Source: Micrococcales bacterium 31B
GTDB taxonomy: Bacteria; Actinomycetota; Actinomycetes; Actinomycetales; Dermabacteraceae
Assembly (NCBI GenBank): GCA_022803075.1
Contig: JAFFTF010000006.1
Span: forward strand, 248,251-312,250
Length of the DNA: 64,000 nt
Direction of reading: 5' to 3'
Shown: positions 53,554 to 64,000 of the stretch, one piece after another
Layout of the letters: the number at the start of each line of letters is the position of its first letter
Position numbering within the stretch: position 1 is the first letter of the stretch
Position numbers and translations under genes: made by a program
Notes under the pieces: model-generated
The model's database searches: none
The model's input: only the letters and a program-made list of their open reading frames with translations
Told to the model about the DNA's origin: nothing

Positions 53554-53597
53554 TGCTAACCTCGAATCGCACCACGAACCTTAACCGTGCACTCCTC

Positions 53598-53617
53598 GCG
53601 GCCTCGCACGAGGCCGC
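53598..53617 (+). terminator. GC hairpin upstream of moxR
   Basis: GCGGCCTCG-CA-CGAGGCCGC is a perfect 9-bp stem with a 2-base spacer, 38 bases before the moxR start. Without a U-run it may reduce, rather than stop, read-through from the surface protein gene. Confidence 0.4.
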
Positions 53618-53655
53618 AGCGCTGCGGAGCACGACACAGAACTAGAGGAATCCAC

Positions 53656-54633
53656 ATGTCATTGACGCCGGAGCAAGCCACCCGCTTCGCCCAAATCTTC
53701 GACCGGCTCGTGTCGACCGTAGGTGCGTCGCTGCTGGGTAAGACCCACGTGGTGCGGCTCTCGCTAACCGTGATGTTCGCGGAGGGACACCTGCTGCTCG
53801 AAGACCTCCCGGGCACGGGCAAGACCAGCCTCGCGCGCTCCATCGCAGCCGCGGTGCAGGGCGAGAACTCCCGCATCCAGTTCACGCCCGACCTCTTGCC
53901 CTCCGACGTTACCGGCGTCTCCATGTACGACCAAGACACCAAGCAGTTCGAGTTCCACAAGGGCCCCGTGTTCGCCACCGTGTTGCTCGCCGACGAAATC
54001 AACCGCGCGAGCCCGAAGACGCAGTCGGCTCTGCTTGAGGTCATGGAAGAGTCCACGGTCACGGTGGACGGCGTGACACACCCGGTCGGCCGCCCGTTTC
54101 TCGTGATCGCCACCCAAAACCCTATCGAACAGGCGGGCACCTATCGCCTGCCCGAAGCCCAACTCGATCGCTTCATGGTTAAAACCTCCATCGGTCACCC
54201 CGACTTCGACACCACGGTTCAGGTGCTCAGTGAATCGGCTGTGCGCGACCGCAGCGCACAGATCACTCACGTCGTGACCCCCAAGATGGTCGCCGAAATG
54301 GCCGAGGCCGCGCAGACCGTCCATGTGGACCCCGCGATCAGCCGCTACGTCGCGCGACTCATGGAAGAAACCCGCAACGCCCCCGAGGTGCGAGCGGGAG
54401 TCTCCATGCGCGGTGGCATCGCACTGCTGCGTGCCGCCAAGGTATGGGCCGCGGCGAACGGTCGCCACTTCGTCCTGCCCGACGACATCAAGGCCCTCGC
54501 GGGGCCCGTATGGACCCATCGCCTTGTGCTGGACGCTGAGGCCGAATTCGCCGGAGCCACCGATGCGGGAATCATGCAGCGCGTGCTGGCCGAGGTGGCA
54601 CCGCCGCAGGCGCGGGACCTGACCCAGAGTTAG
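53656..54633 (+). CDS. moxR: MoxR-family AAA+ ATPase
   Basis: A 325-residue chaperone-like ATPase. Walker A is LPGTGKTSLARS, Walker B is VLLADEINRASPKTQSALLEVMEE (key part LADEINRA), and sensor 1 lies in FLVIATQNPIEQAGTY. MoxR proteins usually work with a VWA or DUF58 protein encoded next to them to mature or regulate a partner, here probably a membrane complex of this cluster. The ATG at 53656 follows GAGGAA; an upstream start in the same frame is not supported. The stop is two bases before the DUF58 start. Confidence 0.93.
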   Translation: MSLTPEQATRFAQIFDRLVSTVGASLLGKTHVVRLSLTVMFAEGHLLLEDLPGTGKTSLARSIAAAVQGENSRIQFTPDLLPSDVTGVSMYDQDTKQFEFHKGPVFATVLLADEINRASPKTQSALLEVMEESTVTVDGVTHPVGRPFLVIATQNPIEQAGTYRLPEAQLDRFMVKTSIGHPDFDTTVQVLSESAVRDRSAQITHVVTPKMVAEMAEAAQTVHVDPAISRYVARLMEETRNAPEVRAGVSMRGGIALLRAAKVWAAANGRHFVLPDDIKALAGPVWTHRLVLDAEAEFAGATDAGIMQRVLAEVAPPQARDLTQS

Positions 54634-54635
54634 CC

Positions 54636-55865
54636 GTGTCGACAACTCAGCCACACGTAACGCGCCCGGGAGAAGCCCGCGGCGGCGCCCGCGCATGGGC
54701 TCGGTTTCGGCGCCTGATCTCCTTCGTGGCACCCCTGGGCTGGGTCTGTCTCGTCGGTGTGGCCGTCTCTCTCACCCTCGGTCTGTGGCTGCACTGGTTT
54801 GAGTTCATGCTGGTAGCGTGCTCGCTCGGGATCGCCCTCCTCGCCGCCAGTGCCTACTTGATCGGGCGCCAGCGTTTCGATGTGTCCCTCGACGTCGCGA
54901 AGAATGCGGTTGAGGCGGGGGAACCTGCCGAGGGGGGAATCCGCGTGACCAACCGGGCCACCCGCGCGTCCGCCGCCGTACGAATCGAATTTCGGGTGGG
55001 AGCCGAACGCGGCTCGTTTACGCTGCCGCGCCTGCAACCCGACGAAACCCACGAAATGGGTTTTCGGATACCCACTCACCGCCGAGCCGTCATCAACCTC
55101 GGCCCCGTCACGAGCGTGCGCGACGACCCCTTTGCGCTGCTGAGCCGCACCGTGTACTGGACCAAAGTACAAGAATTGCTGGTGTACCCGAAGGTGGTGC
55201 GGCTGCCCGAATCGGAGACGGGCTTTCTGCGCGACCTCGAGGGGTTCCCGTCGCTCGACATCAGCGATTCCGACATGTCCTTTCATGCGCTGCGCGATTA
55301 CGTACGCGGTGACGACACTCGGCAAGTGCACTGGAAGTCCTCCGCACGCACCGGGCGTCTCATGGTGCGACAGTTCGAGGAGTCGCGCCGCTCCCGCGTC
55401 GTCATCGCACTGGACGACCACGAAGCGGCGTATGCGAAGCCCGACGAGTTCGAGTTGGCCATCTCGTGCGCGGCGAGCGTCGCCCTCGAGACTATGCGCA
55501 GCGGCAAGCGGTTCAGCATTTTCAACGGCCCCCAGGCGATAGCCGCGCCACACCGCACGGCGGCCCTCGACGCCTATACCCGGCTCGACTTCGCGACCGC
55601 GCACCACAGCATTCACGAGATGCCGCGCCTGATCACCATGCAGGCCTCCGATGCGTCGGCCATCGTGTGGGTCACCGGCTCGTCGACCAGCCCCGCCGAC
55701 CTGCGCCGGAGTGTCGCCCTGCTGCCGCTCGGCGCGATGGTCATCATCCTGCGGGCCGATCTGGGCGCCAAACTGACGCGCAACAGCCTGGGCATCGCGA
55801 CCGTCACGACGGTCGGCGATCTCGAGCACCTCGCGAGTGGAATGAGATTGGCAGGTATGGGATGA
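54636..55865 (+). CDS. DUF58 domain-containing membrane protein
   Basis: A 409-residue protein with two membrane helices near the N-terminus (about residues 28-70) and a DUF58 domain. The DUF58 signature is DYVRGDDTRQVHWKSSAR (about 225-242), followed by a VWA-like fold (RRSRVVIALDD). It is the standard MoxR partner. The start is GTG two bases after the moxR stop, and the stop overlaps the transglutaminase-like gene (ATGA). Confidence 0.9.
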   Translation: MSTTQPHVTRPGEARGGARAWARFRRLISFVAPLGWVCLVGVAVSLTLGLWLHWFEFMLVACSLGIALLAASAYLIGRQRFDVSLDVAKNAVEAGEPAEGGIRVTNRATRASAAVRIEFRVGAERGSFTLPRLQPDETHEMGFRIPTHRRAVINLGPVTSVRDDPFALLSRTVYWTKVQELLVYPKVVRLPESETGFLRDLEGFPSLDISDSDMSFHALRDYVRGDDTRQVHWKSSARTGRLMVRQFEESRRSRVVIALDDHEAAYAKPDEFELAISCAASVALETMRSGKRFSIFNGPQAIAAPHRTAALDAYTRLDFATAHHSIHEMPRLITMQASDASAIVWVTGSSTSPADLRRSVALLPLGAMVIILRADLGAKLTRNSLGIATVTTVGDLEHLASGMRLAGMG

Positions 55866-58369
55866 GCACCGCAACCGACTCGGCCCCCCACGCCGAACCC
55901 CAGCCCACTCAACCGGCCACGACCGAGCAGACGGCCCCCGTGGCGTCCGAGACTGAGCGGGCCGCCCTGCCGCCGCTGGGCCGTAGCCTCGTGGACGCGC
56001 TCGCGTTCGCGCTCATGTTTGGAGCGGGCGCACTTGGCTTTCAAGGCTCGTTTGGCGGCAATTTCTACCTCATCACCTGCGCGGGAGCCGTGCTGCTGGG
56101 GTTCTTGGTGACGGCGCTCTGCACGGGCTTCCGCCTGGGGGTGATTCCCGGGGTGCTGCTGTGCATCGTGTTCTACCTTGCGTTTGGCGGGCTGCTCGTC
56201 GTGCCGCAAGAGGGCCTATTTGGCGCGCCCACGCTCGAAGTGCTGCGCATGATGGCCGAGGGTGCCATCGTCGCATGGAAGCAACTTCTCACGATCGTCA
56301 CGCCCGTCGGCGACCTGCCCGCACTGCTCGTGGTGCCCTATTCACTCGGCATCGCGTGCGCGTCCAGCGCCCTCGCGATCGCTATGCATTCACGCCGCTA
56401 CCTGCTGGCCCTGCTGTTCCCCGCGGGTTACCTCGCGGGCGCTATCCTCACCGGCACCAAGGCCACCGCGTACCCCGTGCTGCAGGCGCTCGCGCTCGTG
56501 GTGGTTGCGCTCTTGTGGGGTACCTGGCGGTCGATTCAATCGCGCAACGGGGCCTCGTCGCTGGGGCTGCCGAGCATGCGCAATTGGCGCATCGGTCGGG
56601 TCGTTGCGGGTGGCGCGACTCTCGTGGCTATTGTGGGCCTCGTGGCCGTCGGCGCGGCCTACCTGCAACCCACGGGCGACCGCTTCGTGCTGCGCGACGA
56701 GGTGGTGCCGCCGCAGGTGTTTGAGAACCTGCAAAGCCCCCTGGCGGGTCAGCACGCGTACTACAAGTACCAGGCAAAAGACACGGTGCTCTCGGTGACG
56801 GGCAGTTTGCCGGAGAACGCGCGCATTCGAATCGCGGCGTTTGACGATTACAACGGCACGGTCATGGATGTTGCCGGCACCGACGCCCTCGGTACCGATT
56901 CGGGCGAGTTCCGTCGCGTGGCCTCCCAGATTGGGTCGGACGCCGCGGGTGTCCCGTACACAGCGAACATTACGTTGGGTGGGTACAACCAGGTGTGGGT
57001 GCCCGAGGTCGGCGCCGTGACTGGACTGACGTATTCGGGTGCCCGCGCAGAGCAGTTGCAGGGGGCGCTGAGTTACAACGAAACGGCTCGCACCATGTTT
57101 AGCCTCGTGCCGCTGCGGACGGGAGACGCCTACACCCTCACCGGCATCGTGGAGCCGGTGCCCACCGAGGCGCAACTGCTGAAGGCGACGGTGGAACCCC
57201 TCAATCTGCCCGCGCTTCAGCAAGTTCCGCCGAGCCTCGTGACTGCGGCGCCGGGGCTCGTGGGGGAGGCGCAAACCCCGTATGAAAAGGCGAAGAATGT
57301 CGCCGAGAACCTGCGTGCGGCCGGGAGTTTCAGCCACGGGCTCGAGGGGCAGCTGCCGTCACTGCCCGGTCACGGTGCAGGTCGACTCGACACGATGTTC
57401 CGGCCGCCGGACGTCGATCAGGCCGGCAACATTATCGGCGATTCCGAGCAGTATGCCGTGGCCATGGCCATTGTCATGCGTCAGCAGAACATTCCGGCGC
57501 GAGTGGTGATGGGTTTCAAGTCGAAGCCCAACGGTGGGGCCGGAGCCTACACGGGCAACGATGTGTATAGCTGGGTGGAGATCAACTTCGCCGGCTACGG
57601 TTGGGTGGCCTTCGACCCGACGCCCGATGAAGACAAGCAAGAACAGCAACCGATCAAGCAGCCACGCACGGAGACGCAGGCCGAGGTGCACCCGCCGCCG
57701 CCGCCCAAGGCGGAGATCCCGGAGGCGCCTCCGGTGGCGTCCGCGGACGCCCCCAAGAAGAAGCCCGAGGACAAGCCGACCCCCGAGGAAGGCCGTTCGA
57801 TGTTGTTTTACGCGGGCCTCGGTGTTGGCGGACTGCTCATTGTGCTGGCGCTGTTCCTCATGACTATCGTGCTGGTCAAGGCGTCGCGGCGGCGCAAGCG
57901 CCGCAACCGTGGCCATACCAGCGACCAGTACCACGGCGGCTGGGCTGAGGTGCGTGACTTCGCCGCCGACCTGGGCCGACACGTGACGCCCAGGCGCACT
58001 CGGCAGGAGCACGGCCGCGAACTCGCGCAGGCGTATCCTGCGGTCGACATCATGGCCCTCGCGCGGCGCACCGATGCAGGGGTTTTTGGCCCGGGAGACC
58101 CAGCGCCAGATTCGGTCTCCGATCACTGGAGCCGGGCGCACGCCACCATGAAGGAGATGGCCGCGAGCGTACCGTGGGGTCAACGCATTCGTGCGCCGTT
58201 CTCGTTGCGTTCCCTGCGCTCCCAGCACAAGCGGGCGGCGAAGCAGGCACGGCGGGCCGCGAAGTTGTCGCGGCGAGCCGACAAGCAGGCCGAGCGCGCC
58301 GCCAAAAGGTCCAATGCTAAAGGTGGGGACGGCACTGCGCCGCCCGCCGCGGGTTCCCCCGCGGTGTAG
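55862..58369 (+). CDS. Membrane transglutaminase-like protein (DUF3488 type), triad altered
   Basis: An 835-residue protein with about seven helices in residues 45-275, an extracytoplasmic region with the transglutaminase-like domain (about 475-595), a Pro/Lys linker, a last helix (about 645-670) and a basic cytoplasmic tail rich in KQARRAAKLSRRADKQ-type sequence. At the place of the catalytic Cys stands Ser528 (GDSEQYAVA). The His position (HAW in active enzymes) is Tyr569 (VYSW). Asp585 in FDPTP is kept. So classic transglutaminase or protease activity is doubtful. The start overlaps the DUF58 stop in ATGA. It is expected to act in the MoxR/DUF58 complex. Confidence 0.88.
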   Translation: MSTATDSAPHAEPQPTQPATTEQTAPVASETERAALPPLGRSLVDALAFALMFGAGALGFQGSFGGNFYLITCAGAVLLGFLVTALCTGFRLGVIPGVLLCIVFYLAFGGLLVVPQEGLFGAPTLEVLRMMAEGAIVAWKQLLTIVTPVGDLPALLVVPYSLGIACASSALAIAMHSRRYLLALLFPAGYLAGAILTGTKATAYPVLQALALVVVALLWGTWRSIQSRNGASSLGLPSMRNWRIGRVVAGGATLVAIVGLVAVGAAYLQPTGDRFVLRDEVVPPQVFENLQSPLAGQHAYYKYQAKDTVLSVTGSLPENARIRIAAFDDYNGTVMDVAGTDALGTDSGEFRRVASQIGSDAAGVPYTANITLGGYNQVWVPEVGAVTGLTYSGARAEQLQGALSYNETARTMFSLVPLRTGDAYTLTGIVEPVPTEAQLLKATVEPLNLPALQQVPPSLVTAAPGLVGEAQTPYEKAKNVAENLRAAGSFSHGLEGQLPSLPGHGAGRLDTMFRPPDVDQAGNIIGDSEQYAVAMAIVMRQQNIPARVVMGFKSKPNGGAGAYTGNDVYSWVEINFAGYGWVAFDPTPDEDKQEQQPIKQPRTETQAEVHPPPPPKAEIPEAPPVASADAPKKKPEDKPTPEEGRSMLFYAGLGVGGLLIVLALFLMTIVLVKASRRRKRRNRGHTSDQYHGGWAEVRDFAADLGRHVTPRRTRQEHGRELAQAYPAVDIMALARRTDAGVFGPGDPAPDSVSDHWSRAHATMKEMAASVPWGQRIRAPFSLRSLRSQHKRAAKQARRAAKLSRRADKQAERAAKRSNAKGGDGTAPPAAGSPAV

Positions 58370-58384: not shown

Positions 58385-60436
58385 GTGAATCAGACACCAG
58401 CGCGGTGTACCCGATGTGGATCACCCGTCAGTTCGGCTGCCTGCCCGTCGTGTGGGACCCCCACGGGTTTGGTCGCTCCCTATCGCCCCGACGCGCCGTC
58501 CCCCGAGGCGCCTCCGCGCTACCCGAATGTCAATGCTCCGAGCCAACCTGCGGGCGGCGGAGTTCCGGCGAACGGTGGGTCGGCGAACGGCGAGTCGGCG
58601 AACGGTGGGTGGGCCACGGCAGAGCAGCCGGTCACGTATCGTTTCGGCTACGTCGTGGCGCCACGGGGCAGCGTGCTGGGCACATGCACCCTCGACTTGG
58701 TCACCTATCTTGGTCCCGGCTTGGTGTTGCTGCTGGCCGGAATCGCGTACGTAGTGTTCAAGAATCCGCTTTACATGGTGCTGCTGCCGGGTCTCGTCGC
58801 CTATGTGTTTGGCGCGGTGCTTTATGTGCTGCACCTGGGTGCGGGCCAGCCGCTGCACGCGCGGCGACGCGGTCTCGTGGTGATGGGCTTTGACACGGCC
58901 GCCAGGCCGGGCTTTGGGCGAGCCTATGTAAACCTCCTATTCGTATCGCTGCTGGGCATCTTTAATTTCGTGTCGAGAGATCAATACGGCCGAGTCGTGT
59001 GTGAGCGCATTGCGGGCGTGGTGTGGATAGATACTCAAGGCGGTGCGAATCCGCTGGCTCTCGGCAGCCTGCCGCGCTCTGCTCACGCGGTGCCGGGTGG
59101 ACGCCCGCAGGTCCCCGGTGGCGGGACGCCGCGTGGACCCGAAACCACGCTCGAGCCCGGCCAGCAGACAGCCTGGGCGGGCTCCGGGGCAACGTCATCG
59201 TGGGCACCGGCGAGCTCCGTGGGTGGTGGTGCCGCTCCTCATGCGGGCGAGGCCAGTGAGCCGCATTGGGATTCGTGGAGCGAATGGGTGCTCGATGATA
59301 GGGAGGATCCCGCCGCGGCGTCCGGCAACACTGCCAGCCCGGTGCTGTCGGGTGGCTCGGCTTTGCCAGGTAGCCAATCGGACGGGGGTGGGCTAGCTAA
59401 TGCGGCCAATGGCGTGGACGCTTCGGTACTTGAGGACCCGGCCGTCGCTGCGGACGCGGCCGTCGCTGCGGACGCGGCCGTCGCTGCGGCCCCGCTCGCG
59501 CACCCCGAACCCCCTGGCCTCGGCGCAATCTCGCATTACGGCGAGGCTCCGGCAGCGCTCGGTGACGGGGCAGGGCACACTCTCGCGGCGGCACAGCCTG
59601 CACCCCCAACGCCGGCATTTGCGGCGCACATGACGCCTAATGCGAATGACTTCGCTCCTCGCGTCGACAGCGACGCGTGGGACGCAGTTTTAGGCAACGA
59701 CCCCGATCACGATGCCACTGCACGCTCGTTCCCTGGCGCGATCGAGTCCCTTGCGGAGCCGCCTGCCCTGCCTGCCCTGCCTGCCCCGCCTGCCGCGTCC
59801 GCTGCGACGGCACCGGCTGTACCTGTCCTCCCCGTGACCCCGGTGGCGGCGCAGGTACGGGCCTCCGTGGCGTCCGAACCGGCCCGTGCCGCTGAACCGG
59901 TGGCCGCGCAGGTACGGGCCTCCGTGGCGTCCGAACCGGCCCGTGCCGCTGAACCGGCGCCAGAACCGAGAACGTTGCAGGCCATAAACTCGGGGGGCGA
60001 CTCCATGCTGCTGTCGACCACGGTGCCCCAATCTGGTAGTCCCGTACTCGACGACGCCGACGAAGCGTTTGCAGCCACAGAAGTGTCTGTCGCCCGTCGC
60101 CGCAAGCGGGGCGCCGAACTGGTCACCAGCAACGATCAACGCGAGTTCATCTACGGGCACGTGGTGGTCGGGCGCAACCCAAGTGCGCCTCTCGAGGTAC
60201 CCGGGGCGAGCCCACTGCGTTTGCGCGACCAGTCCCGCACCCTCTCTAAGACCCACGCGCATCTTGAGGTCAACGAGCATGGAGTTTTCGTGACCGACCT
60301 CGGCTCGAGCAACGGCACCACCGTCGTTGACGCGGCCGGCACCGAGACCGAACTCGACCCGCTGCAGCCCGTCGCTCTGCAGCCGGGGGCGCACCTGCTG
60401 TTCGGTGACTTGCGCTGCGAGGTGCTGCGCCCATGA
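58385..60436 (+). CDS. Zinc-ribbon, RDD and FHA domain membrane protein
   Basis: A 683-residue protein. An N-terminal zinc ribbon has CTRC and CPSC pairs (Cys8, 11, 20, 23). A low-complexity stretch of NGGSANGES-type repeats follows, then an RDD membrane domain (about 89-217). Next comes a long Ala/Pro/Glu linker with two DNA-level repeats, and a C-terminal FHA domain (about 588-683) with the phosphothreonine-binding residues GR, S..H (SKTHAHLE) and LGSSNGT. FHA domains bind phospho-Thr, so it should be a target or reader of the kinase encoded three genes on. The start is GTG after GAGGAG. The stop overlaps the phosphatase gene start. Confidence 0.87.
   Translation: MNQTPARCTRCGSPVSSAACPSCGTPTGLVAPYRPDAPSPEAPPRYPNVNAPSQPAGGGVPANGGSANGESANGGWATAEQPVTYRFGYVVAPRGSVLGTCTLDLVTYLGPGLVLLLAGIAYVVFKNPLYMVLLPGLVAYVFGAVLYVLHLGAGQPLHARRRGLVVMGFDTAARPGFGRAYVNLLFVSLLGIFNFVSRDQYGRVVCERIAGVVWIDTQGGANPLALGSLPRSAHAVPGGRPQVPGGGTPRGPETTLEPGQQTAWAGSGATSSWAPASSVGGGAAPHAGEASEPHWDSWSEWVLDDREDPAAASGNTASPVLSGGSALPGSQSDGGGLANAANGVDASVLEDPAVAADAAVAADAAVAAAPLAHPEPPGLGAISHYGEAPAALGDGAGHTLAAAQPAPPTPAFAAHMTPNANDFAPRVDSDAWDAVLGNDPDHDATARSFPGAIESLAEPPALPALPAPPAASAATAPAVPVLPVTPVAAQVRASVASEPARAAEPVAAQVRASVASEPARAAEPAPEPRTLQAINSGGDSMLLSTTVPQSGSPVLDDADEAFAATEVSVARRRKRGAELVTSNDQREFIYGHVVVGRNPSAPLEVPGASPLRLRDQSRTLSKTHAHLEVNEHGVFVTDLGSSNGTTVVDAAGTETELDPLQPVALQPGAHLLFGDLRCEVLRP
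59441..59488 (+). repeat. 18-bp tandem repeat in the RDD-FHA gene
   Basis: GCCGTCGCTGCGGACGCG occurs twice exactly and a third time partly, encoding Ala-Val-Ala-Ala-Asp-Ala units in the linker. Confidence 0.8.
59840..59953 (+). repeat. 57-bp direct repeat in the RDD-FHA gene
   Basis: Two adjacent 57-bp copies differ at one base (GGCGGCG and GGCCGCG). Each encodes 19 residues beginning PVAAQVRASV and ending ARAAE. The near identity shows a recent duplication that keeps the frame. Confidence 0.9.
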
Positions 60437-61279
60437 AGCGTGTCACGGACGCGAATAGCGTCGAAGTGCGGGTCGGCCATGCCACCCACGTGGGTCGAGT
60501 GCGCAAGACCAACGAAGACTCAATTCTTGTGCGGCATCCCGTCTATCTGGTCGCCGATGGCATGGGGGGGGCACGAGCGTGGCGAGGTGGCCAGCTCGCT
60601 CGCGGTGGGGGAGTTCGCGCGGCTCGCGGGCACTCCACAAGCGACGGTCGCAGACCTCACCGAATGCGTGCACGCAGCCTCGACCCGCATTGATGCTCTC
60701 GGTAATGCGGGCACCACCATTGTGGCCGCCGTGGTGACGATCGTCGACGCCCGGCCGTATTGGATGATCCTCAACCTAGGCGATTCGCGCGCCTATCAGT
60801 GGATCCGCGGCATTGGCGAACCAACGCTGCGGCAGGTGAGCGTTGACCACTCGGTCGTGCAGGAGATGGTGGAATCCGGAGAGATTGCGCAGCGCGATCG
60901 GCGCCTACACCCCTCTCGCCACCTGGTGACGCGCGCGCTGGGAGCGGGTTCGGAATCCATCGAGCCGGATTATTGGTTGATTCCCCTCGAAGGGGGCGAA
61001 CGACTGGTGCTGTGTTCCGATGGATTGACCGACGAATTGTCGGATGCGGAACTCTTGGCCATACTGAATTTGGGCCTTGATGTACAACGCTGTGCTGAAC
61101 TCTTGACTCAAGCCGCCTGCGACCGGGGCGGGCACGATAACGTAAGTGTGATTGTTGTAGAAGTTGAGGGGCAGCCTGACACAGACAGCGTGCAGACTGA
61201 TCGGCGGGGGGAGCGCGGGGTGCTCACCTCCAAAGACCTCGATGACTCCGATACGCTACCCAGATCGGCCCGCAGATGA
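60433..61279 (+). pseudogene. PP2C-family Ser/Thr phosphatase, frameshifted at a G8 run
   Basis: The gene begins at an ATG overlapping the preceding stop (ATGA). It reads GRVRKTNEDS and VADGMGG, the metal-binding start of a PP2C phosphatase, then hits eight G at 60564-60571. The correct continuation, GHERGEVASS, is in the next frame and runs on with LGDSRAYQW, SDGLTDELSD and GGHDNVSVIVV to the stop at 61279. With one G fewer the product is a normal PP2C of about 281 residues with all aspartate metal ligands. The lesion is exactly in the DGMGGH active-site motif. It may be a sequencing error, slippage-based on/off switching, or a true null. It would oppose the downstream kinase. Confidence 0.85.
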
Positions 61280-62883
61280 GCTTAGACATGATATTTCAAA
61301 CGCGCTACGTGCGCGGCGACGGGCTGGTCGTTTCTCGAGGGGGCTGCTGCGTGGTGGTGCCCGTGGCCGACGCCTGCGGTCAGGCGTTCGTGGATGCCCT
61401 GTGGGTGCTCGCGGGCGATTACGGGGCACTGCCCGGTGCGGGTGAAGCGTGGGACATCGCCGAAATCGACGCTTTGGAATACCGCGAAACTGTGAAGGGG
61501 CATCTAGCCGATCACGGGGCGAGCGGCTTCATCGCGACGCGTCGCGGTGACAAGCTTGAGGTGACGCGGGTGGGTGAATGCGCTGCCTTGACCGTCAGTG
61601 CGGACGCCTTGGAATGGAACACCAAGGGCGCCCGCGGCACCACATTGCCGTGCGACGAGGCGGCAGTTTGGGCGGACGCCCTGTGGCTCGGGGCCACGAA
61701 AGCCTCCGTTGACGCGCGCTACCAATCCACACAGATGCCTGTCGGAGAGGACGACTGGGACATCGAGGGGACCCCTGAGGGGGACCTCATAGCAGGCGCG
61801 GACGGGGACTTCGCTGGAGACTACGCCGATACCCTGGCCGCGGACTCGGCGCTGGGGGACACCGTGCCGCCGTTCGCGCACCGCGCCGATCTCTCCGAGG
61901 ACGACCTGATGGCATCGACGCGCATGATGGTGCGCCGCCAGTCCGCCCCCCGGGGCCACGCTGCGACGCCGACACCCGAGAGTGCTGCGCCCGCGAAGCA
62001 GCTTCCCCCGGGCGCCGTGGACAGTCCCGCACCGGCTGCCGTCGCCACGCCTCCTCAGCACGTTCCGGTTGGGTCTCCTGGACCCGCGTCGGCAGGTCCG
62101 GCTCCGGCAAGTCCCGCGTCGGTTCGTCCGGGAGGGGTGCTGGATTCTTTTTTCGCGTCCCTTCCGGCGCAGCCTGCGGGCCAGGCGCAATCCGCGTTTG
62201 GCCAACCCGTGTATGGCCAGCCAGTTCCGGGCCAGCCAGTTCCGGGCCAGCCAGTCCCGGGCCAGCCAGTTCCGGGCCAGCCGCAACCCTCGTTCAGCCA
62301 CCCCTCGTTCAGCCAACCCGCGTATGGCCAACCCGCCCCGGGCCAGCCGCACGGCCAGGGATACCCGGCCAGCGCGGCGTCCGCCTCGATCTATGCCCCG
62401 GGCCCGGAGCAGTTCGGCATCCAGTCGCCCCACGTCTCAGGGTCGGCGTGCGCCCGCGGTCACCTCAACCCGCCCCATCGCGCGGACTGCCGAGTTTGTC
62501 GGCTGCCCGTCGTGCCGGTCGCCGAGGCTTTCCCCCGGCCCGCGCTGGGGACGCTGTTCACGGAGGGAATCGACCCCATCGTCGTGCGGGGCAACGTGAT
62601 TTTTGGCCGTAAACCGTTCGGCGACCGCTTCGGGCGGCATGAGCAGCCCCTGCTGGTCGCGGTGAACGGGCCGTCAAACGACATCTCGCGCAACCACGTT
62701 CTGATCAGCGTCGAGCAGTGGCACGTGTTCGTCAGCGACCTCGACAGCACCAATGGCACCCTCCTGCACCGCGCGGGCTATGCTCCGCGTCGCCTCATCG
62801 CCCACGAGCAGGTCATGCTGCGCTCGGGTGACATCATCGACCTCGGCGACGGCGTGACCATTCGGTGTCAGGACATTCCATGA
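61276..62883 (+). CDS. FHA domain protein with zinc-ribbon-like motif
   Basis: A 535-residue soluble protein. The first 170 residues have no domain I recognise. A Pro/Ala/Gln-rich linker follows, with GQPVP repeats. A Cys motif (CARGHLNPPHRADCRVC, about 391-407) and a C-terminal FHA domain (about 430-535) end the protein; the FHA residues are FGRKPFG, ISRNHVLIS and LDSTNGT. It resembles the FHA proteins that sit beside Ser/Thr kinases in actinobacteria. The start overlaps the phosphatase stop and the stop overlaps the kinase start, both as ATGA. Confidence 0.85.
   Translation: MSLDMIFQTRYVRGDGLVVSRGGCCVVVPVADACGQAFVDALWVLAGDYGALPGAGEAWDIAEIDALEYRETVKGHLADHGASGFIATRRGDKLEVTRVGECAALTVSADALEWNTKGARGTTLPCDEAAVWADALWLGATKASVDARYQSTQMPVGEDDWDIEGTPEGDLIAGADGDFAGDYADTLAADSALGDTVPPFAHRADLSEDDLMASTRMMVRRQSAPRGHAATPTPESAAPAKQLPPGAVDSPAPAAVATPPQHVPVGSPGPASAGPAPASPASVRPGGVLDSFFASLPAQPAGQAQSAFGQPVYGQPVPGQPVPGQPVPGQPVPGQPQPSFSHPSFSQPAYGQPAPGQPHGQGYPASAASASIYAPGPEQFGIQSPHVSGSACARGHLNPPHRADCRVCRLPVVPVAEAFPRPALGTLFTEGIDPIVVRGNVIFGRKPFGDRFGRHEQPLLVAVNGPSNDISRNHVLISVEQWHVFVSDLDSTNGTLLHRAGYAPRRLIAHEQVMLRSGDIIDLGDGVTIRCQDIP
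62215..62280 (+). repeat. 15-bp tandem repeat in the FHA gene
   Basis: GGCCAGCCAGTTCCG is repeated four times with one T/C change, encoding Gly-Gln-Pro-Val-Pro units in the linker before the FHA domain. Confidence 0.85.
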
Positions 62884-64000
62884 GCAAGAGCCCCCGGCTT
62901 TCCCCTCCGCTGCTGGATAACTACGAGTTTGTCTCGTTCCTGGGCGGTGGCGGGTTCGCCGACGTATTTCTCTACACAGACCACACGTTGCACCGCCAGA
63001 CCGCCATTAAGGTGCTGCATCGCGACGTGACCGCGCCACGCGCCCTCGCCCAGTTCGGCGAAGAAGCGACCGTCATGGCTAAGGTGTCCCAGCACCCTCA
63101 CATCGTGAGTATCTACTCGACGGGCATTGCCGCCGACGGTCGGCCGTTCATTGTCATGGAGTACTGCAAGGCCCCGAATTATCAGGTGAGGTTGCGGCGC
63201 TCGCGGCTGAGCGTGCAGGAATGCCTCTCGGTGGGCGTCAAAATTGCGGGCGCGGTGGAGTACGCGCACCGTGCGGGCATCGTGCACCGCGACATCAAGC
63301 CCGAGAACATCCTGGTCAACGACTTTGGCCCGGCACTCACCGACTTCGGCATCTCAGCCCTCAAGGTGGGCACCACCTTCAAGGGGCTTGGCATCGAGGC
63401 CGGTGATGAGGAGTCGGAACACGCACTCTCGCTGCCGTGGTCGCCACCCGAGGCGCTTTGGGAGCGTCCGGCCCTCGATGAGCGCAGCGATGTCTACTCC
63501 CTCGCCGCCACGATCTACACCCTGTTGGCGGGCGCGAGCCCCTTCGTGCTTCCCGGCACCGGCATGACGCGCACCCTCCTGGAGGAACGCATTCGCACGG
63601 AGCCGCTGCCGCAGGTCAAACGCAGCGACGTGCCGCAGGAACTTTACCTGGCGTTACGCACGGCCATGGACAAGGACGCGCGGCGCCGCTATTCGAGCGC
63701 GCTTTCTTTCGCGCGAGCGCTCAACACGGTCGAATTGGGGATGCATCTGCCAGAGACTCCGCTGCCGCTGCCGCAGGAGTCTCTGCTGCGCGACGAGGGC
63801 CCGAATCGCGAGGTCGATGACGCGGACGGCACGCAATTGCGTCAGGTCATCACCCTCGGCGGCCAGCCGCCTTCGGTGGAAGGGTATTCAGGGCCGACGC
63901 CGAGTGGCACGCAGGCCCCCTCCGCGCCCTCGCAGCTGGGATCGGGAATGCCCGGCCCCATGTCGCCCGGTACGGACCCTCACGGTGGATACAACAGTGG
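62880..64000 (+). CDS. Ser/Thr protein kinase (partial, runs off right edge)
   Basis: A Hanks-type kinase. The visible 373 codons hold a full kinase domain (about 15-285): Gly loop LGGGGFADVF, Lys44 in TAIKVLH, catalytic HRDIKPEN (Asp138), DFG at 155-157, and a SPPEAL segment in place of APE. A Pro/Gly/Ser-rich juxtamembrane-like region follows to the edge, so a transmembrane helix and sensor domain, if any, lie outside the window. It is co-translated with the second FHA gene (ATGA) and, with the PP2C phosphatase, forms a reversible phosphorylation pair. Likely targets are the two FHA proteins and the MoxR/DUF58/transglutaminase complex. Confidence 0.9.
   Translation, partial: MSKSPRLSPPLLDNYEFVSFLGGGGFADVFLYTDHTLHRQTAIKVLHRDVTAPRALAQFGEEATVMAKVSQHPHIVSIYSTGIAADGRPFIVMEYCKAPNYQVRLRRSRLSVQECLSVGVKIAGAVEYAHRAGIVHRDIKPENILVNDFGPALTDFGISALKVGTTFKGLGIEAGDEESEHALSLPWSPPEALWERPALDERSDVYSLAATIYTLLAGASPFVLPGTGMTRTLLEERIRTEPLPQVKRSDVPQELYLALRTAMDKDARRRYSSALSFARALNTVELGMHLPETPLPLPQESLLRDEGPNREVDDADGTQLRQVITLGGQPPSVEGYSGPTPSGTQAPSAPSQLGSGMPGPMSPGTDPHGGYNS

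Follow-up and report, generated by a model that had tools for sequence, protein, structure and literature searches.

The window, by which we mean the whole stretch of 64,000 nucleotides analysed here, ends in a cluster of genes in the order MoxR-DUF58-transglutaminase-FHA-PP2C-FHA-kinase (Table 1), the last four of which are linked by ATGA overlaps at 60433, 61276 and 62880. The MoxR-type ATPase is 70-71% identical to that of two family relatives. The kinase had been described as adjacent to the phosphatase gene, which does not hold, as the second FHA gene (61276-62883) stands between the two.

The phosphatase gene belongs to the PP2C (PPM) family, but is broken as assembled. Its ATG overlaps the TGA stop of the preceding FHA gene, and the frame which begins there retains VGRVRKTNEDS...VADGMGG, then departs from the family sequence and reaches a stop at 60691-60693 after 86 codons. 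The neighbouring frame, one base over, holds HERGEV and what follows, up to 61279. Against PF00481 this downstream piece scores 26.5 bits over residues 47-193, passing the curated family threshold (cut-off 20.3), and its matches in the PDB are 2j82, 1txo and 2cm1. Aligned with the solved bacterial PP2Cs, with the motifs read against 2j82, it contains the later PP2C motifs GDSR, SDGLT and GG-DN, which presumably have the conserved roles assigned to them in PP2Cs; the Asp of VADGMGG we take to be metal-binding. In sequence family and conserved motifs the window copy resembles PstP (1txo, 2cm1) and 2j82; unlike these, it has its frame interrupted at the first metal-binding motif.

Positions 60564-60571 are exactly eight G, the G of an ATG codon included in the count, and form the only homopolymer of at least seven, of any base, across the 64 kb. 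A Viterbi scan based on codon usage, covering 498 kb of the organism's own sequence with the window included, locates the frame switch at the G8 itself. As assembled, no single open frame joins VADGMGG to the remainder of the gene; the frame changes within the motif, and an alternative reading from a GTG at 60440 in the second frame would be without the motif Asp. The run count, the reading in two frames and the Viterbi placement bear out the original prediction that G8 breaks the reading frame of PP2C within the metal-binding motif. The run is a slippage-prone tract within a coding frame, and in the assembled state it breaks that frame. Since both parts still hold PP2C sequence, the break is either recent or artificial.

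Table 1. Genes at the end of the window and G/C tracts of the genome. Plain numbers are window positions; C, G and L numbers are our own handles.
Feature	Position	Strand	Basis or remark
MoxR-type AAA ATPase (ORF extent, start provisional)	53587..54633	+	PF07726 1.8e-62
DUF58 protein	54636..55865	+	PF01882
Transglutaminase-core protein (ORF extent; true start internal)	55466..58369	+	PF01841
FHA-domain protein 1	58385..60436	+	PF00498 4.9e-09; ATGA overlap with PP2C
PP2C start: first 44-46 codons in frame, then out-of-frame tail (86-codon reading)	60433..60693	+	ATG overlaps FHA TGA
G8 homopolymer, frame-change point	60564..60571	+	Run count and Viterbi frame switch; one of five out-of-frame intragenic runs
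Remaining PP2C gene, neighbouring frame	60566..61279	+	PF00481 26.5 bits; 2j82, 1txo, 2cm1
FHA-domain protein 2	61276..62883	+	PF00498 1.2e-09; ATGA overlaps with PP2C and kinase
Ser/Thr protein kinase, continues past window end	62880..64000	+	PF00069 1.3e-35
In-frame tracts	C3:52969, C30:45576		Both in or beside signal peptide
G11 in alpha/beta-hydrolase, out of frame	C13:99827-99837		L178, G000:C13:97500-102500
G/C8, small secreted protein, out of frame	C5:39229-39236		L155; in or before signal peptide
G/C8, small secreted protein, out of frame	C2:241100-241107		L134; in or before signal peptide
C11 after fourth codon, small secreted protein, out of frame	C5:24393-24403		L177; less sure, other start possible
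Poly-G/C tracts, 8 to 13 long, ahead of genes for secreted proteins or lipoproteins	C23:273857-273869, C26:167171, C4:40800, C1:183794, C29:36141		
G/C7 frame break in surface-type protein	C2:190583-190589		L133, G000

Run length in the assembly and other G/C tracts

One explanation of the break is that the gene is intact in the cell and that its homopolymer was miscounted in the draft; such a sequencing or assembly error falls short of an even chance, and is nearly as likely as a slip in the cell. The assembly is a draft in 31 contigs with isolated single Ns, three of them in a 400 kb sample and one of these inside a G-run, which speaks for an error. So do two published accounts, as far as their accessible text goes: database G-tract lengths are unreliable, in that they can differ from measured ones (Penno et al., PMC9187656), and lone frame breaks are treated as likely sequencing errors or indels (Antonov et al., PMC3711429). 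Single-N sites were seen at L186:7572, L193:2506 (the same as L139:1556), L194:18036, L140:614 and L169:1529; one single N lies within GGGGGNGG, and one shortly past a G8 run.

Runs of up to G13 are resolved in the assembly, which speaks against miscounting, and two counts point the same way as weak tests. Among 168 same-strand frame changes in the Viterbi scan, 17 had open overlaps longer than 45 nt. The PP2C site accounts for two of these flagged rows, being seen in two overlapping stretches; no other flagged frame change at a run of at least 7 was found in the 498 kb scanned, seven of the 15 other rows having been read. The seven comprise gene junctions or stretches of unusual composition, together with two genes that look broken, one of them a transposase gene (at L196 ~15567 and L192 ~16152, with no homopolymer of at least 5 there). 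In a similar sample of the genome 134 G/C6 and 4 G/C7 runs lie within one frame, as if short runs were mostly well counted. The run-count tests are weak because 11 G/C6 and one other G/C7 run in the same sample lie at same-strand frame changes, and because the automatic test missed broken tracts. Nine of the 11 G/C6 and the one G/C7 were re-examined and gave no clear break.

Automatic frame tests were insensitive at long runs. They rated the L155, L134, L178 and L133 tracts as "one side coding" or low, and a test with 180-nt flanks failed to give the PP2C gene's own left frame, since the flank crosses the gene start. Frames around long runs were therefore judged by eye. The genome has 17 G/C runs of at least 8 (twelve of 8, two of 11, and one each of 9, 10 and 13), and at all of them frames were read, start codons chosen and signal peptides judged in this way. 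Seven of the 17 are intragenic, two in frame and five out of frame. The in-frame share, 2/7 against one third expected at random lengths, shows no more than that the register of long tracts is not maintained, and this fits slippage and miscounting alike: the five out-of-frame runs can be entered in favour of a slip, and the four besides PP2C are what miscounting too would produce.

Pfam gave no match for the small secreted proteins L155, L134 and L177; homologues of the C5 secreted protein were found in one of 57 other genomes, and of the C2 protein in none of the 57. In the alpha/beta-hydrolase gene the N-terminus is read in one frame and Abhydrolase_6 in another, the Pfam match (profile positions 27-216 of 217) lying behind the G11 tract. 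A gene which we read as a HigA-like antitoxin stands ahead of it. The length of the five tracts found upstream of secreted-protein or lipoprotein genes could alter expression, and the last five of the 17 lie in gaps separating other genes, at what looks like an IS junction or in a stem resembling a terminator.

Runs of exactly 7 number about 70. When 22 G/C7 runs were read by eye, four were clearly within one frame, the RecA-like L122 included, and one broke a gene, a count which also goes with slippage. The broken gene, L133, resumes in another frame into a sortase-anchor-like tail (LARTG, a hydrophobic stretch and a basic end); it fits slippage and miscounting both and leaves the odds unaltered. 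Farther upstream this gene may change frame once more. Long tracts as such do not set the genome apart, as relatives hold anything from 0 to 905 G10 windows (57 genomes) against 9 here. Two same-family genomes, G011 and G033, have very many, 905 and 283 respectively.

Tract conservation, repair and phase variation

The original prediction went on to suggest that variation in the run length would switch phosphorylation of the cluster on and off. The motif DNA was scored in 109 related PP2C loci, 108 (80 + 28) from other genomes and one the organism's own paralogue, leaving out locus L112, which did not fit the motif pattern. The longest G-run in the motif is 3 in 103 loci, 6 in five, 7 in one (Clavibacter) and 8 in none, the 98 genomes searched being without any of the same genus. 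The relatives give no sign of a conserved switch. In sampled genes of the organism's own genome GGG makes up 16.4% of Gly codons, and GGGGGG occurs in 11 of 1047 Gly-Gly codon pairs. A run of seven or more in 1/109 is about the rate which this codon usage would give, as if the run were neither kept nor avoided, and given the 11 pairs in 1047 a G7 in this gene would be an unremarkable accident. The downstream PP2C part was matched (E ≤ 0.001) in 97 of the 98 genomes, own included, many of the matches being other PP2Cs, such as those of the PstP type.

From the motif the reading stays open for at least 180 codons in 108 of the 109 loci. The lone exception is Curtobacterium flaccumfaciens CP121450 (L054), in which the PP2C gene breaks about 60 codons past the motif at a site without a homopolymer of at least 5; the break lies at another place, and the frame change is not conserved in orthologues. 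A second lone PP2C break, away from homopolymers, adds to the case for an error. The same comparison bears on recoding, in which programmed frameshifting or transcriptional slippage on G8 would yield a portion of full-length enzyme without a change in the DNA. A ribosome or polymerase could in principle re-pair after a slip on G8, but the run is not conserved and none of the 109 loci has a frame change at the matching place, and we hold this to be highly improbable.

Repair of slips was considered from the gene content. The MutS_V profile has no match in the genome, although it was found in 11 of 14 control genomes, and NucS is present. In M. smegmatis NucS leaves 1-2 bp indels unrepaired, according to the accessible text of PMC11551767. 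Without a MutS match, and with a NucS that may likewise spare small indels, a one-base slip would probably persist, and in this respect the suggestion of slippage is a plausible one.

That the G tract evolved as a contingency switch which acts on the phosphatase and, through it, on the FHA/kinase cluster nevertheless appears improbable. It gains from the missing MutS match, from the further out-of-frame G/C tracts in genes for secreted or surface proteins, and from the G-tract ON/OFF switching established for Bifidobacterium breve pili (PMC9187656, accessible text). It loses by the conservation data, with G8 in 0/109 and G7 in 1/109 related loci, by a tract just 8 long, and by its target: a cytoplasmic signalling phosphatase is an unusual one, surface proteins dominating in the accessible part of PMC3711429. 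Among the papers accessible, a literature search which paired phase variation with PP2C or threonine phosphatases and homopolymers, Stp1 included, gave nothing. The frame break is confirmed; the phase-variation reading of the PP2C tract is weak, and an accidental slip or an error is the stronger reading. The signal-peptide, hydrolase and surface-anchor tracts are better candidates for phase variation than the PP2C G8.

In B. breve the G-tract switch of a sortase-pilus gene was measured by maximum depth sequencing, and transcription drops behind the out-of-frame stop (Penno et al. 2022, PMC9187656). As far as the accessible text of that paper goes, the likeness is that of an actinobacterium with an intragenic G-tract which splits one gene over two frames. 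The B. breve tracts differ in having equivalents in various members of the genus, whereas the PP2C tract is not conserved and is known from one assembly, and in lying in a pilus gene rather than in that of a cytoplasmic phosphatase (PMC9187656). A wider variant would take the secreted-protein, surface-anchor, G11 hydrolase and PP2C tracts as one poly-G contingency set in a genome without detectable MutS, in which a slip in PP2C would switch the FHA/kinase cluster through loss of both the phosphatase and translational coupling. This joint reading is, if anything, a shade less probable than a switch at PP2C by itself. Were it true, what switched stochastically would be protein phosphorylation rather than a surface protein. 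The out-of-frame G tracts at signal peptides and the surface anchor make up a concrete wider set of candidates.

Mycobacterium tuberculosis has NucS in place of MutSL, and homopolymer phase variation has reportedly been found there in glpK and in ESX-1-associated tracts. Homopolymer indels recur in large isolate collections of this species, which suggests selection (PMC11898584, accessible text). The two cases are alike in that homopolymer indels occur in an actinobacterium and that a frameshift can inactivate an enzyme; they differ in that the M. tuberculosis data come from many isolates and the PP2C G8 from one assembly (PMC11898584).

A possible accidental slip and its expected consequences

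To the view that a chance G7 in the PP2C gene slipped by one base to eight within the cell, leaving an accidental loss-of-function allele and no evolved switch, we give an even chance. The codons of the conserved Met-Gly-Gly would by chance have been spelled with seven G, and a replication slip would then have added the eighth in the sequenced clone; we infer this eighth G in the DNA of the cell, rather than read it from cells. Where MutS is wanting the slip would stay uncorrected. It would be reversible, yet the tract is short and not conserved, which is why an accidental allele is preferred to an evolved switch.

The 86-codon product would be expected to lack activity, as it ends shortly beyond the first metal-binding motif. 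Owing to the ATGA overlaps, ribosomes bound for the second FHA gene and the kinase would stop about 580 nt short, and this polar effect would probably lower translation of the second FHA protein and of the kinase as well. Since both probably fall too, a kinase left unopposed is not the likeliest outcome.

If the slip is real, a signalling phosphatase is to be added to the genes which NucS-reliant bacteria lose through homopolymer slippage, and G-rich spellings of conserved Gly-Gly motifs may be weak points of GC-rich genomes without MutS. If instead the eighth G arose in assembly, the case warns against taking lone G8 frame breaks in draft genomes as biology.

The genome holds two further PP2C genes by PF00481, one on C6, which appears to be PstP-like, and one on C30. 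The latter is intact (272 codons), adjoins a gene 43% like the window's second FHA domain, and is 47% identical to the window PP2C over 205 residues. To the PP2C of the corresponding cluster in two family relatives its identity is about 61%, against 48% for the window copy; the gene order of these clusters is that of the window's. In a quick tree C30 groups with the family's copies and the window copy falls outside them, the placement of the latter being unsure. Because this intact paralogue exists, loss of the window PP2C may be partly covered. The intact paralogue and the ATGA overlaps argue for an effect other, or weaker, than switching of the cluster's phosphorylation. The C30 pair of PP2C and FHA-like genes occupies L143:4771-6733 (G000:C30), not far from a polyprenyl synthase gene.
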